A DNA stretch of 64,000 nt from Microbacteriaceae bacterium MWH-Ta3 (GTDB lineage: Bacteria > Actinomycetota > Actinomycetes > Actinomycetales > Microbacteriaceae), in contig QBKD01000001.1 in the NCBI GenBank assembly GCA_003053925.1, forward strand, positions 372,001 to 436,000, written 5' to 3'. The notes beneath the pieces were generated by a model that worked only from the letters and a program-made list of their open reading frames with translations, ran no database searches and was not told where the DNA came from. The position numbers and the translations under genes are program-made. Shown here piece after piece: positions 18,108 through 22,384 of this stretch. Every line of letters begins with the position of its first letter. Position 1 is the stretch's first letter.

Positions 18108-18926
18108 ATGTCCAGCCCCGCACTGACCTATACCGAGTACCTGAAGATCGACGAACTTCTGGACCTCAACCACCCGCAATCCGACGAACACGACGAACCG
18201 CTGTTCATCGCCATTCACCAGGTGTATGAACTGTGGTTCAAGCAGGTTCTGCACGAAATGCAGGCCGTTCAGCGCACGCTCGAGGCCGGCGACACCTTCC
18301 GCTCGTTGGCAACTCTGGGCCGCATTCGCACCATCCTCAAGGTGTGCGTGGCGCAGCTGGACATCCTGGAAACCATGACCCCGCTGCAGTACAACACGTT
18401 CCGCGACCGCCTGACCTCGGGCAGCGGCTTCCAGTCGGCACAGTTCCGTGAACTCGAGGCCGTGCTGGGGCGCCGCGACCACGCCGGCGCGGGTGCCGCC
18501 GCCGGAACCGGAATGGGCATGAGCGAGCACCTCGTGGCGGGTTCGCCCGCACGTGCGCGTGTGGAATCGGCGATGGCCCGGCCATCACTGTGGGATTCCG
18601 CCCTGCGCTACCTCGTGACCCGCGGCCACGCCATGCCCGAATCGGTCATGACCCGCGATGTCAGCACCCCCTATGCCGGCGACGAGGCGGTGCAGGATGT
18701 CCTGCTGACAGTCCACCGCACCGACGCCGAGGCCGGCCTGATCTGCGAATCCCTCGTGGATATCGACGAGGGCCTGCAGGAATGGCGCTACCGCCACGTG
18801 AAGATGGTGGAGCGCACCATCGGCCGCAAGATGGGAACCGGCGGATCCTCGGGCGTGGGCTATCTGTCGTCCACCCTGTTCCACCCGGTTTTCCCCGATC
18901 TGTGGGCGATTCGTTCGCGGTTCTAG
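18108..18926 (+). CDS. kynA: Tryptophan 2,3-dioxygenase
   Basis: This 272-residue haem dioxygenase opens the indole ring of tryptophan to N-formylkynurenine. Family blocks are TYTEYLKIDELLDLN, FIAIHQVYELWFKQ, the haem-ligand region YRHVKMVERTIG and the C-terminal GTGGSSGVGYL. Length and motifs match the family throughout. It is downstream of kynU with a gap of only two bases. The hydrolysis step between the two enzymes has no dedicated gene nearby. One of the alpha/beta hydrolases upstream could in principle supply it, but nothing in their sequence shows this. Confidence 0.93.
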   Translation: MSSPALTYTEYLKIDELLDLNHPQSDEHDEPLFIAIHQVYELWFKQVLHEMQAVQRTLEAGDTFRSLATLGRIRTILKVCVAQLDILETMTPLQYNTFRDRLTSGSGFQSAQFRELEAVLGRRDHAGAGAAAGTGMGMSEHLVAGSPARARVESAMARPSLWDSALRYLVTRGHAMPESVMTRDVSTPYAGDEAVQDVLLTVHRTDAEAGLICESLVDIDEGLQEWRYRHVKMVERTIGRKMGTGGSSGVGYLSSTLFHPVFPDLWAIRSRF

Positions 18927-18933
18927 TCAGGGC

Positions 18934-18968
18934 TGCGCGCCTCGGACACATTTTCCCCGAGGCGCGCA
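18934..18968. terminator. Terminator-like hairpin after the kyn operon
   Basis: A perfect 12-bp inverted repeat (18934-18945 with 18957-18968) starts eight bases after the kynA stop. The loop contains TTTTCC but no T-tract follows. It separates the kyn operon from the tRNA gene. Confidence 0.55.
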
Positions 18969-18989
18969 CCTGATATTCTGAACACGTAA

Positions 18990-19065
18990 GGGCCTATGGC
19001 GCAGTTGGTAGCGCGCCTCGTTCGCAATGAGGAGGTCAGGGGTTCGAATCCCCTTAGGTCCACCA
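18990..19065 (+). tRNA. tRNA-Ala (anticodon CGC)
   Basis: A complete cloverleaf: acceptor GGGCCTA pairs with TAGGTCC (one G-U), the D and T arms are canonical (GGTTCGAATCC), and the anticodon loop carries CGC, which reads GCG alanine codons. The CCA end is encoded at 19063-19065. Confidence 0.95.
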
Positions 19066-19132
19066 CAAACTCTGTACACACAGCAGATTCAGTATTACCC
19101 CGAGTGGCAAATGCCTCGCTGCGCGATTGGGG

Positions 19133-19639
19133 CTACGCGGATGAATTCCTGCCTAAGGCAACTTTGCCGCCCGCCAGGACAATTGCGGCAATCAGGCCAA
19201 TGCCGGCAAGGGCAACTGCGGCTTTTCGTGTCTCCCCCGCTTGATGTGCCTCGTGCTCTCGACCGTCGTTCTGACTGTCAATTTCAACCATTGCGGTTTC
19301 CATGAGTTTTGCTGTCAGGAACGCCGCATGTTCCTCGCTGATATCGTCACGCTGCAATTGCGACGTGATGGCCTCACGAACGTCCGCAAGTGACTCGTGA
19401 ATTCGCTCGCTGCGCTTATCTTCGTTAGACATTGTTTCCGTGAACACGCGCTCGACTGCAGAAACCGCATCGAGGGCAAATTTCTGGAATCCCGGAATCT
19501 GATCAATTAACTTCATCCGGACTTCTTTCGCCATGTCCGGCATAGATGCGGCAAAAGCCAACATCTTGTCTTTCGATAATTCACGGAAAGAATTGATTCC
19601 GAGAGCGCTTCTGACTGCTTCCTCGTTGTCCAGCGTCAC
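19133..19639 (-). CDS. Hypothetical protein with a C-terminal membrane anchor
   Basis: This 168-residue protein is not recognised. Residues 1-130 are soluble and charged, with probable helical segments. Residues about 141-159 form one hydrophobic segment (VALAGIGLIAAIVLAGG), followed by a short polar tail. It would be a tail-anchored membrane protein with the bulk in the cytoplasm. The start is a GTG with GGAG upstream. It is downstream of the small-peptide gene on the same strand but behind a strong terminator, so it probably has its own promoter. A link to the neighbouring regulator is possible only by position. Confidence 0.65.
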   Translation of the reverse strand: MTLDNEEAVRSALGINSFRELSKDKMLAFAASMPDMAKEVRMKLIDQIPGFQKFALDAVSAVERVFTETMSNEDKRSERIHESLADVREAITSQLQRDDISEEHAAFLTAKLMETAMVEIDSQNDGREHEAHQAGETRKAAVALAGIGLIAAIVLAGGKVALGRNSSA

Positions 19640-19754
19640 GCGAATCTCCGTTTCCTCCGGTGCGTTTTATCACTCCCCAGACTATCGACGTAGGAGCCTG
19701 TAGGCGAATAAATCCCATCACATGCATTGGCGCATTGACCTCGCACGGCAAACG

Positions 19755-19788
19755 AGAGGGGCGGCCCACCGAAGTGCGCCGCCCCTCT
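19755..19788 (-). terminator. Terminator of the small-peptide gene
   Basis: A perfect 11-bp inverted repeat (19755-19765 with 19778-19788) lies 12 bases after the stop of the 38-residue peptide gene, with a short T-containing stretch after it. It marks the peptide gene as its own transcript of roughly 200 nt. Confidence 0.65.
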
Positions 19789-19799
19789 GACTGCTCGAA

Positions 19800-19916
19800 C
19801 TAGCGAGGCAGGCAGCACCCGAAGGGGGTGATGGTCACGGTGTCGGCCGATGCGGCGGTGACGCCGGTTGCAGCAAGGGTGACGGTCAACAGAGTGACGG
19901 CAATGATCTTCTTCAT
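19800..19916 (-). CDS. Small secreted peptide precursor (38 aa)
   Basis: This 38-codon gene has a good ribosome binding site (AAAGGA, seven bases before the ATG). The product begins with MKK, has a hydrophobic core to about residue 16, and an ASA signal-peptidase site at residues 22-24. The predicted mature peptide is 14 residues, DTVTITPFGCCLPR, with adjacent cysteines. The promoter has a perfect TTGACA -35 and GATGCT 17 bases downstream, and the gene ends in a strong hairpin. It is divergent from the XRE/TPR regulator gene. Gene size, export signal and position match signalling-peptide genes such as papR or phr of Firmicutes. That role, and whether the mature form is the whole tail, is inference. 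Confidence 0.72.
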   Translation of the reverse strand: MKKIIAVTLLTVTLAATGVTAASADTVTITPFGCCLPR

Positions 19917-19965
19917 GAGGGGTCCTTTCGTTAGGCCAGGGTGGCCGATTCTGAGCATCTAGCAG

Positions 19966-19983
19966 TTTGTCAAATTTGTCAAA
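19966..19983. promoter_or_regulatory. Tandem TTTGTCAAA repeat shared by divergent promoters
   Basis: Two adjacent copies of TTTGTCAAA (19966-19974 and 19975-19983), each a near-palindrome, lie between the peptide gene and the XRE/TPR gene. Read leftward they supply TTGACA for the peptide promoter. Read rightward the first supplies TTGTCA, 18 bases before the TATTCT of the regulator. They are the obvious candidate operator for the XRE protein. Confidence 0.55.
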
Positions 19984-20002
19984 CGGCGCATATTCTGGAG
20001 CC

Positions 20003-21292
20003 ATGTCGAGCACCACGCCCCACATTGGGGCGGAACTGAAATCCGAACGGCTGAGGCGGGGCCTCACCCTCGACGACGTGGCGCACAGCATCTGTTCGTA
20101 CAGCTATTTGAGCCTGGTTGAATCGGGCAAGCGCAACCCCAGCCCACGCATCGAAACCGCGCTACGCGCCCGACTGGGCCTGCCCACCACGGAATCGCCC
20201 GGGCTGTACATCACCAATGTGGACTACCAGATGGCGTTCATTGCGTACCGCCGCAACGAGATTCCCCAGTGGCAAGAATTCCTGGGCCGCCTGCCCGAGG
20301 ATTCGAACGAGACGCTTCACCTGCTGGCATTGGCCGATGAACACGAAGGCAACCTGGATCGTGCGGTGGCGTTGTACCTAGAGGTGCTGGAATCGACACC
20401 GGCCCCCATCGAATTCCATGTACGCGTGGCGATTGGCGCGATTCGTGCGCTGTGCGGCCGCACCGAATACCTGCGGGCCGTGACCATTTTCGACGACATC
20501 GTGGACCGCTATTCCGAGGTTTTGCACCACTTCCCCTCGATGCACATTGAACTGTGGGCCATGATGGCCAACGTCTTTGCCGAAACAAACCAGCTGTCAC
20601 GCGCCACCGCCGCGCTGCACACCCTGGCGGGTTTGAAGCCCGCCGATGCCGAAGACACCTTGAACAAACACTGGGGCGCGGCCGATGCATATCGCACGGT
20701 GGGCGACTGGGCGCAGGCCGAGCACCACACCACCGAAATGCTGCGGCTTGTGGACCGCCGCACGCATCCACACAAGTGGGCGGCCAACACCACCAACCTC
20801 GTGACCATCGCGCTGAACCGTGGCACGCGCGAATACGCCGCAATGATCGTCCAGCAATACGAGGCACTGCACACGCTTCACGAACTGCACAGTGCACACG
20901 AGGAACGCCAGGCCCGCCTGAACCTGGCCCTGCTGTACGCGCTGGCGCAAGACCCCACCAGCGCCCAAGCCGAACTCTTCGGCATCACCGAACACATTGC
21001 CCGGCACCCCGGAATTGAATCGGGCGACATGCACGTGGAACTGGCGCGCGTGTATCTGGCCCTGAACGACACGGCATCGGCCCTGGATGCCCTCACGCGC
21101 GCCACCCAGATGCTGGATGATTCCCCGCACACGCGCACCTCAGCCATCGCCTGGCGCACCATGGCCGACCTCTACGAACGCGCGGGCGATACGGTGGCCG
21201 CGGCCTCGTGCCTGAAGCAGGCACTGGACCGGCTGGGAATTCATTCCACGCTGGAAGTTGTGCCGCTGGTTTTCGACCCCTCGATGCCCTAA
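20003..21292 (+). CDS. XRE-family HTH / tetratricopeptide-repeat regulator
   Basis: This 429-residue protein has an N-terminal XRE/Cro helix-turn-helix (about residues 8-65; blocks ELKSERLRRGLTLDDVA and YLSLVESGKRNPSPRIE). About 350 residues of TPR-like helical repeats follow, recognisable in LADEHEGNLDRAVALYLEVLE and ELARVYLALNDTASALDAL. HTH plus C-terminal TPR is the layout of peptide-binding RRNPP regulators (PlcR, Rgg, NprR, AimR). The ATG at 20003 is preferred because TATTCT lies exactly six bases upstream and the HTH begins at once. A divergent secreted-peptide gene lies 86 bp away, and a TPR paralogue follows after three bases. It could instead sense another ligand or protein. Confidence 0.85.
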   Translation: MSSTTPHIGAELKSERLRRGLTLDDVAHSICSYSYLSLVESGKRNPSPRIETALRARLGLPTTESPGLYITNVDYQMAFIAYRRNEIPQWQEFLGRLPEDSNETLHLLALADEHEGNLDRAVALYLEVLESTPAPIEFHVRVAIGAIRALCGRTEYLRAVTIFDDIVDRYSEVLHHFPSMHIELWAMMANVFAETNQLSRATAALHTLAGLKPADAEDTLNKHWGAADAYRTVGDWAQAEHHTTEMLRLVDRRTHPHKWAANTTNLVTIALNRGTREYAAMIVQQYEALHTLHELHSAHEERQARLNLALLYALAQDPTSAQAELFGITEHIARHPGIESGDMHVELARVYLALNDTASALDALTRATQMLDDSPHTRTSAIAWRTMADLYERAGDTVAAASCLKQALDRLGIHSTLEVVPLVFDPSMP

Positions 21293-21295
21293 GCC

Positions 21296-22384
21296 ATGGA
21301 CTCTGGGAACGACCTGCACATCACCGATTCGGTGGTGAACGAAGCTCTTGCGGCCGTGCGCCGCAACGACCTGGTGGCGGCCCACACCCACATGTTGGGC
21401 CTGCACCCCGATTCCACCGAGCGCCAGTTCATCGGCGCCCTGCTGGACGAAATTGGCGGCAACATCGCCAAGGCCCTGGCCATTTATCAGGCGTTGCTGG
21501 ACGAACCCGTGTCCCCCGCCGAACTGCACATTCGAATCGCATTGTCGGTGATTCGCCTGCACAACGCCCATTCCGATTACGAATCCAGCATCCGAGTCGC
21601 AACCGACACCCTGCGCGTACACGCCGCCGCGCTGCGCCAGTTGCCCGCCCCGTTTGTGGAATTTCACGCCATGCTGGCGTGTGCCTATGCCGAAACCGGG
21701 CACGACACGTTGGCGCGCGCCTCGATTGACGATCTGGATTCCGCGGAAGGCCTGGAACCCGCCGAGCTGATTCACGCGCAATGGGGGTGCGCCGATGCCG
21801 CCTTTGCTCTGGGCGATCTGCCCCGCGCGCAGCACCACGCCGAACGCGCCCGCGACGCCGCACACGCCACCGGATCGCCCCACGCGTGGGCGGCCACCGA
21901 AACATTTGTAAACCGTATTCGCCTGCAACGCGGTGATACGCGTTATCGCGAAATGGCCCCCGGCCAAGCTCGGGCTGTGGCAGCATTCGAGGATCGCCCC
22001 GCCGTGCAACCCGCCATTGAGGCCCACTGTGTGCTGGCGCTGTTGCATGCCCTTTCTGAACAACCAGTTGCGGCCTTCACCGAAATATCGGTGGCCAACG
22101 CCCTGATTCAGGCACACCCCGATGCCGAGACCGCTCCTTTGCACATCGATTTGGCGCGTGCATATCTGGCACTGTCGGACAACGAATCGGCGTTGGATTC
22201 GTTGCTGCGGGCCGGTGCGCTGTTGAACGACTTCGCAGCCACCCGATCCACGGCGAAGGTGTGGCGCGATATGGGCGAACTGCACGAGCGCCTGGGGGAC
22301 ATGGTGGCGGCCAACGCCTGTTACAAGGCAGCGCTGGATAACGCGGGAATCACCGCGCTGCTGTCGAGCATTCCCGAACGGTAG
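21296..22384 (+). CDS. TPR protein, paralogue of the upstream regulator without HTH
   Basis: This 362-residue protein consists of TPR-like helical repeats and has no DNA-binding domain. Its C-terminal third clearly resembles the upstream regulator: HIDLARAYLALSDNESALDS here against HVELARVYLALNDTASALDA there. It starts three bases after the regulator stop, so the two are coexpressed. In known peptide-sensing families, TPR proteins lacking an HTH (Rap proteins) act on partner proteins. A comparable role as peptide receptor, titrating partner or heterodimer subunit is inference. Confidence 0.8.
   Translation: MDSGNDLHITDSVVNEALAAVRRNDLVAAHTHMLGLHPDSTERQFIGALLDEIGGNIAKALAIYQALLDEPVSPAELHIRIALSVIRLHNAHSDYESSIRVATDTLRVHAAALRQLPAPFVEFHAMLACAYAETGHDTLARASIDDLDSAEGLEPAELIHAQWGCADAAFALGDLPRAQHHAERARDAAHATGSPHAWAATETFVNRIRLQRGDTRYREMAPGQARAVAAFEDRPAVQPAIEAHCVLALLHALSEQPVAAFTEISVANALIQAHPDAETAPLHIDLARAYLALSDNESALDSLLRAGALLNDFAATRSTAKVWRDMGELHERLGDMVAANACYKAALDNAGITALLSSIPER

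Follow-up and report, generated by a model that had tools for sequence, protein, structure and literature searches.

In a 64,000-nucleotide stretch of the genome of Microbacteriaceae bacterium MWH-Ta3 (contig QBKD01000001.1, positions 372,001 to 436,000; hereafter the window), a small gene for a predicted exported propeptide stands divergent from the gene for a regulator that combines a helix-turn-helix (HTH) with tetratricopeptide repeats (TPR), and the regulator gene is followed by that of a TPR-only paralogue. We propose that this three-gene module is probably an RRNPP-like peptide signalling system of actinobacteria, as a first-pass annotation made from the sequence alone had suggested. 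This reading is favoured because a propeptide with a triple repeat stands beside one relative of the regulator, and because the regulator shows similarity, though not exclusively, to Rap, NprR and PlcR.

Predicted exported peptides beside HTH-TPR regulators

Within the genus, a peptide profile gave strong matches in 2 of 15 genomes (E about 1e-22), the window genome (G000; 1.56 Mb, 99.93% complete) and one sibling (G006), from whose two peptides the profile had been built; the next-best match (0.001) was located inside a 337-aa frame. TPR proteins were found in the genus in these same two genomes only, and strong matches to the peptide or TPR profile were again confined to this pair among 398 genomes of the family. 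The family scan gave 15 peptide matches, of which the 13 beyond the pair were all weak, nine without any small open reading frame (ORF) containing Cys-Cys (CC) at the match and four within open frames of 495-707 aa. From 396 order-level genomes, the peptide profile alone retrieved from a genome of another family (G912) a 43-aa exported peptide ending in MPFPCCTKG, the gene of which is divergent from an HTH-TPR gene, and this is the first independent sign of the association between peptide and HTH-TPR protein. A further order-level match (G1079) was within a 506-aa frame.

For the survey of the class, a three-protein TPR profile was used, which matched in 40 of 394 genomes including that of the window, and up to 8 kb was fetched around all 47 non-self matches. 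After removal of five loci, L154 (TPR only, no HTH), L175 (a different protein, of 904 aa), L176 (without a matching ORF) and L149 and L172 (cut off by the end of the contig 253 and 321 bases upstream), a total of 42 could be assessed, including L152, whose HTH was missed by the pattern and detected by Pfam. In 27 of these 42 loci, the regulator is divergent from an exported small ORF whose last two residues are exactly CC, and in 7 from one of the same build with another tail, these seven all belonging to family f35 and all being without cysteine; the f35 tails are mostly of Trp and Pro (GWGWPG, GPWGYPI, GWNHPG, PWQWPI, GWVYPG and AWNGPW), with GPLNNAE standing apart. Each of the 14 genera in the set has at least one peptide holder. 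The CC ending is concentrated at the divergent position, where it was found for 27 of 34 exported small ORFs, as compared with 4 of 34 at other positions up to 300 bases from the regulator, 0 of 87 beyond that distance, and 0 of 70 in 42 other loci used as background, from which the module loci L054-L056 were excluded. The four CC endings at other nearby positions each belong to a second CC peptide behind the regulator gene.

A second draw was made with an 11-row regulator profile against 296 genomes of the phylum, of which 33 matched (own genome included), and 29 of the 36 non-self matches were obtained as loci and read. In 20 of the 29 loci, the regulator is divergent from an exported mini-ORF that has a ribosome site, as against 14 of 252 same-size strand windows (Fisher 1.6e-15 for 20/28, with L209, which has no such ORF, left out), and an aromatic-Pro or CC tail was recognized in 15 loci but in a single background window. 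The tails include ANWPHH, AGWPKH, GFPWPK, APWPPCC, APWPHCC and APFPGCCG, and by eye the TPFGCC of the window appears to belong to this series. The adjacent exported small ORF that the first-pass annotation expected beside homologues of the regulator is thus usually present, in 34/42 loci of the class and 20/29 of the second draw. In genome G041 (L184/L220), the divergent gene encodes the propeptide MLKKIAAAAVLAGALAFSAAAPAVLSAGSIADNAGTSVAIGNWPDPMRVKDVNTTTIGNWPDPMVSKTTIGNWPDPM, which carries three copies of IGNWPDPM with linkers between them; its product was too long for the filter and stays outside the 20 counted. As read from the sequence, this triple-octapeptide layout is that of a multi-copy pheromone precursor.

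The small genes might instead code for exported effectors, antimicrobial or active on metals or thiols, that are under the control of an HTH-TPR protein sensing something else. Two adjacent C-terminal cysteines suit metal or redox chemistry, one f35 locus adjoins CopC and CopD/CtaG genes, and gene linkage does not demonstrate binding. Seven f35 loci, however, share the build without any cysteine, the mature parts are short, the tails vary by clade while the pairing persists, and the triple IGNWPDPM repeat suits a processed signal better, and we consider an effector role unlikely. Under the signalling reading, the terminal cysteines, which peptides of several families have in common but those of the f35 sister clade lack, seem to belong to the signal code and not to be required by the architecture.

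Some loci carry further elements. Four f38 loci have a second CC exported ORF (...DTPDGGSDFCC and like) behind the regulator gene and facing it (Table 1). In L135 (752-3309), CopC and CopD/CtaG genes are located downstream of a CC-bearing regulator on the same strand. Five f37 g130 loci (L214, L217-L219 and L223) have a divergent exported ORF with an (A)NxGPA-like core and neither a CC nor an aromatic-Pro tail, which may represent a further class of signal or some other secreted product. A set of 15 named loci holding regulator matches was also inspected: one, of Nonomuraea gerenzanensis (L189), has a divergent CC peptide (...MTGDAGCC), and three (L186, L192 and L227) have a plausible exported ORF downstream. 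Plasmid-borne regulators of Streptomyces are, by these counts, mostly without a divergent partner. On a plasmid of Streptomyces sp. ITFR-6 (L192, 3988-4131, minus strand), the exported ORF downstream of the HTH-TPR gene is annotated as hypothetical and contains the near-repeat NIGWPVAPAG / NIGWSNAAA, with SARP regulators nearby, while on plasmids of Streptomyces clavuligerus and Kitasatospora (L193, 993-2345; L195, 918-2261) the divergent neighbour of the HTH-TPR gene is an M64 metallopeptidase gene and not a small ORF.

The phage search gave no match for the regulator of the window or that of L184, and a copy of a phage arbitrium system was rejected for the window on this ground. For the L157 regulator, one unannotated phage contig matched, near which the filter gave no small exported ORF. 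Plasmid searches with the peptides found nothing, and no relative was confirmed in two genome-contig scans (P0001 and A1) and four viral-contig scans.

The module in the window and its sibling

The 38-codon ORF of the window (Table 1) bears out what had been read from it, namely a ribosome site, a signal sequence and an AxA-type (ASA) cleavage site. The claimed strong terminator holds in part: the hairpin directly 3' of the gene is very stable, but it lacks a T tract, and a scan for T-tailed terminators gave none.

In G006, the same locus carries a 37-aa peptide of the exported type ending in LSGCCRT, with the predicted mature part APVSIQPLSGCCRT, also of 14 aa. The reading frame and the GCC tail, whose conservation the first-pass annotation had proposed as a check, are both kept, and so is the ribosome site. 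The neighbourhood agrees with that of the window: a TPR-only gene stands beside the peptide gene, tryptophan dioxygenase lies to one side, and to the other lie tRNA-Ala(CGC), the 276-aa-type protein, GNAT and GalU. Neither an HTH partner beside the peptide nor a second TPR match was found in G006, which is 87% complete; since its contig starts inside the dioxygenase gene and the genome is incomplete to this extent, absence of the HTH gene is not proven.

This sibling bears on the possibility that the small ORF is open merely by chance, to which its length of only 38 codons and its lack in most of the genus would lend themselves. Against chance, none of 2000 shuffles was equally similar between the window and G006 peptides, in addition to the conservation just described. 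The differences over 36 codons of the two genes are 17/11/27 at codon positions 1/2/3, and the ratio of nonsynonymous to synonymous differences (pN/pS) is about 0.3 in peptides of relatives. A chance frame is rejected on these shuffles, codon-position differences and ratios, and we give it next to no credence. In detail, pN/pS was 0.35 for one group of relatives' peptides (7 sequences), 0.29 for a second (5 sequences) and 0.47 for another pair; the first two groups are under purifying selection and thus selected as proteins.

The divergent orientation of an XRE-type HTH/TPR regulator was likewise borne out, with Pfam finding both HTH and TPR, and so was the TPR-only paralogue three bases behind it, which shares 35% identity with the TPR part of the regulator. 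On the tree of relatives, the two TPR proteins of the window are sisters, both with long branches and odd composition, and, given this identity and position, one of them seems to have arisen by duplication of the other.

Tandem TTTGTCAAA repeats do exist between the two genes, but as a single pair in the shared intergenic region and not, as first described, one pair for each promoter. For the full site, TTTGTCAAATTTGTCAAA, 0.01 occurrences are expected per window when up to 3 mismatches are allowed, and within this limit the 1.56-Mb genome contains one other site, inside an ORF that is FtsQ-like by eye. A genome-wide operator role for the tandem repeat was rejected, because the site is unique save for this 3-mismatch site in a coding gene. 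Promoter-like matches were at about chance level (2 found, 1.2 expected). As TTTGTCAAATTTGTCAAA reads TTTGACAAATTTGACAAA on the opposite strand, the site could act as an operator and also provide the -35 region of both promoters.

The interval between the tryptophan 2,3-dioxygenase gene and the 276-aa-type gene (window 18926-22384), which includes tRNA-Ala(CGC), was compared in ten sibling loci (L090-L099), of which six span this slot and four are cut by contig ends. In G003 and G007 the slot is empty; in G001, G008, G013 and G014 one other larger ORF occupies it. Since its content differs between siblings, the module is cargo in a variable slot and not a core trait of the genus. Next to the peptide gene in the window is a 168-aa ORF (19133-19639, minus strand) without convincing family match, for which neither the ten sibling loci nor the contig of G006, those being the sequences compared, gave a match.

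Table 1. Features of the module and its surroundings in the window, and second CC ORFs in f38 loci (coordinates of the respective locus)
Feature	Position	Strand	Basis or remark
tRNA-Ala (CGC), beside the variable slot of the module	18990..19065	+	sibling locus comparison
Stable hairpin directly 3' of the peptide gene; candidate terminator	19755..19788	-	-39.8 kcal/mol, z -5.8
Exported propeptide gene MKKIIAVTLLTVTLAATGVTAASADTVTITPFGCCLPR	19800..19916	-	38 codons, ATG start; counterpart in G006 with GCC tail
Predicted mature part DTVTITPFGCCLPR	19803..19844	-	14 codons; read from sequence
Predicted Sec signal peptide (KK, hydrophobic core, ASA site)	19845..19916	-	24 codons; read from sequence
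Ribosome binding site AAAGGA	19923..19928	-	read from sequence
Tandem TTTGTCAAA pair, full site TTTGTCAAATTTGTCAAA; candidate operator	19966..19983	.	between the divergent genes
HTH-TPR regulator, predicted receptor	20003..21292	+	ATG at 20003, 429 aa; Pfam HTH_31/HTH_3 and TPR
Regulator HTH segment (residues 8-63)	20024..20191	+	HTH_31 match
TPR-only paralogue, 362 aa	21296..22384	+	starts three bases past the regulator stop; tree sister of the regulator
Second CC ORF, L157	3921-4085
Second CC ORF, L160	3468-3632
Second CC ORF, L165	3641-3841
Second CC ORF, L171	4053-4223

Receptor fold and proposed circuit

The AlphaFold model of the regulator, made from a two-row alignment, has a predicted local distance difference test score of 81 overall, with the TPR part good and the HTH poor. 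The architecture of RRNPP receptors, a TPR superhelix with or without an N-terminal XRE HTH, is present, the HTH being taken from Pfam and the TPR from the model. After re-alignment on the DALI scale, Rap-pheromone entries took ranks 1-5 (Z 22.4 to 21.6), with NprR (Z 19.9) and AimR (Z 18.6) lower. In comparison with the PDB, the best natural match of the regulator profile was PlcR (E 6.4e-16, over the HTH and the first TPRs), above which stood five designed TPR chains, and the window regulator alone gave a single match, PlcR residues 5-61 (E 0.0014), covering the HTH only. Taken together, the modelled fold and the sequence comparisons point to Rap/NprR/PlcR-like receptors, though not exclusively. 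As to an import route, G000 and G006 each have one SBP_bac_5 gene of the Opp-type importer, accompanied by two permease genes and an oligo_HPY-bearing ATPase gene in G000 and by two permease genes in G006.

From these elements we infer the following circuit. The propeptide encoded by the divergent small gene would be exported by Sec and trimmed to a short tail, in the window around TPFGCC, which would then be re-imported into the cytosol, probably by the Opp-type importer. There the tail may bind in the groove of the regulator's TPR superhelix and alter the contact of the regulator's HTH with the TTTGTCAAA repeats, so that the regulator would control the divergent promoters including that of its own signal gene. 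The TPR-only paralogue, as a duplicate without HTH, would bind the same peptide and act as a Rap-like partner or as a sink.

The same anatomy would serve for an export monitor, in which un-exported propeptide builds up upon failure of secretion and is sensed by the TPR protein, with no signal between cells, and TPR proteins often bind exposed peptides. Tandem tail repeats are, however, not expected of such a monitor, and the element that recurs is the tail and not the signal sequence, which makes this explanation quite improbable. More improbable still is that the mature peptide acts from outside on a membrane receptor encoded elsewhere, the HTH-TPR protein being merely the regulator of the peptide gene. 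In its favour, the importer evidence goes no further than the presence of the genes; on the other hand, the recurring neighbour is the HTH-TPR gene, and the interval from the dioxygenase gene to GalU, in which not all ORFs have an identity, showed no sensor gene in the window or G006.

Several observations weigh against RRNPP-like signalling. By profile, the peptide is absent from 13 of the 15 genomes of the genus, and 8 of the 42 class regulators are without such a peptide (six of these form one clade, and the other two are a pair beside paralogues that carry CC). Many class rows are near relatives, so that as independent evidence they amount to something nearer 14 genera than 42 loci. The CC rule was derived from the very class set in which it was counted, the aromatic-Pro rule was widened after viewing of the second-draw set, and 11 of the 15 named loci show no credible exported peptide. 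The tails alone are of modest similarity between the window and G006 (64 of 5000 shuffles were as good), and two f35 peptide pairs, with pN/pS of 0.94 and 0.72, give no clear sign of purifying selection. The own ranking of Foldseek was led by designed and eukaryotic TPR proteins, with no RRNPP entry among the 50 matches listed, and on the DALI scale APPBP2 (21.1), MalT (21.0) and LGN (20.0) trail the top Rap entry by no more than about 2.5 Z. Set against the recurring pairing, the triple-repeat propeptide and the Rap/NprR/PlcR similarity, these points qualify the reading of the first-pass annotation but leave it favoured. The balance also tilts, if only slightly, towards a wider proposal: Actinomycetota may own a phylum-wide class of intracellular peptide pheromones with clade-specific codes (Cys-Cys, aromatic-Pro and tandem repeats), of which the window would hold a divergent member with a TPR-only partner, the redox state of Cys-Cys being part of the message.

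Comparison with known systems

In the available parts of the literature, peptide pheromones read inside the cell are reported from Bacillota, while the signals reported from actinobacteria are mainly small molecules such as gamma-butyrolactones (PMC10075063, PMC9765709, PMC4748050). RRNPPA receptors were mapped in Firmicutes, all but one genus in Bacilli (PMC9765709, accessible portion), and RRNPP_detector was applied to Firmicutes and viruses in a paper whose introduction names small molecules as actinobacterial signals (PMC10075063, text available in part). A review of actinobacterial quorum sensing lists, in its accessible sections, gamma-butyrolactones and cyclic or modified peptides (PMC4748050), and the available portion of a 2026 review places RRNPP in Firmicutes (PMC13220807). 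In agreement with the first-pass annotation, which knew of no described actinobacterial system of this type, a full-text literature search found none; as preprints and most subscription papers are outside its coverage, novelty is not proven. If the proposal is true, actinobacteria have a peptide language of their own, and this peptide code, spread among actinobacteria that include relatives of antibiotic producers, would supply short signals, open to synthesis, with which regulators could be turned on or off. If the Cys-Cys tail is functional in this form, it would represent a novel signal chemistry.

With PlcR-PapR of the Bacillus cereus group, the module shares a cytosolic HTH-TPR regulator and an adjacent small exported propeptide, and PlcR is the first natural PDB match of both the regulator profile and the window regulator. 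The papR gene lies downstream of plcR on the same strand; the module differs in its phylum, in the divergent peptide gene, in the Cys-Cys or aromatic-Pro tails and in the TPR-only paralogue. With the Rap-Phr system of Bacillus and with AimR-AimP, the likeness is in the TPR superhelix, which can be aligned over 311-334 residues (Z 22.4 for Rap and 18.6 for AimR). G006 resembles Rap-Phr also in pairing a TPR-only protein with an exported peptide, whereas the window regulator, unlike AimR, is without phage match. The NsdA-type HTH-TPR regulators of actinomycetes are similar as TPR regulators, and one relative scored 28.8 bits, below the NsdA cut-off of 75; the NsdA family is not known to have an exported peptide partner. 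Finally, the L184 propeptide with its three IGNWPDPM copies resembles the multi-copy pheromone propeptides of Bacillota, as far as these are described in the available part of the source (PMC11343458), but it is actinobacterial and its gene is divergent from an HTH-TPR gene.

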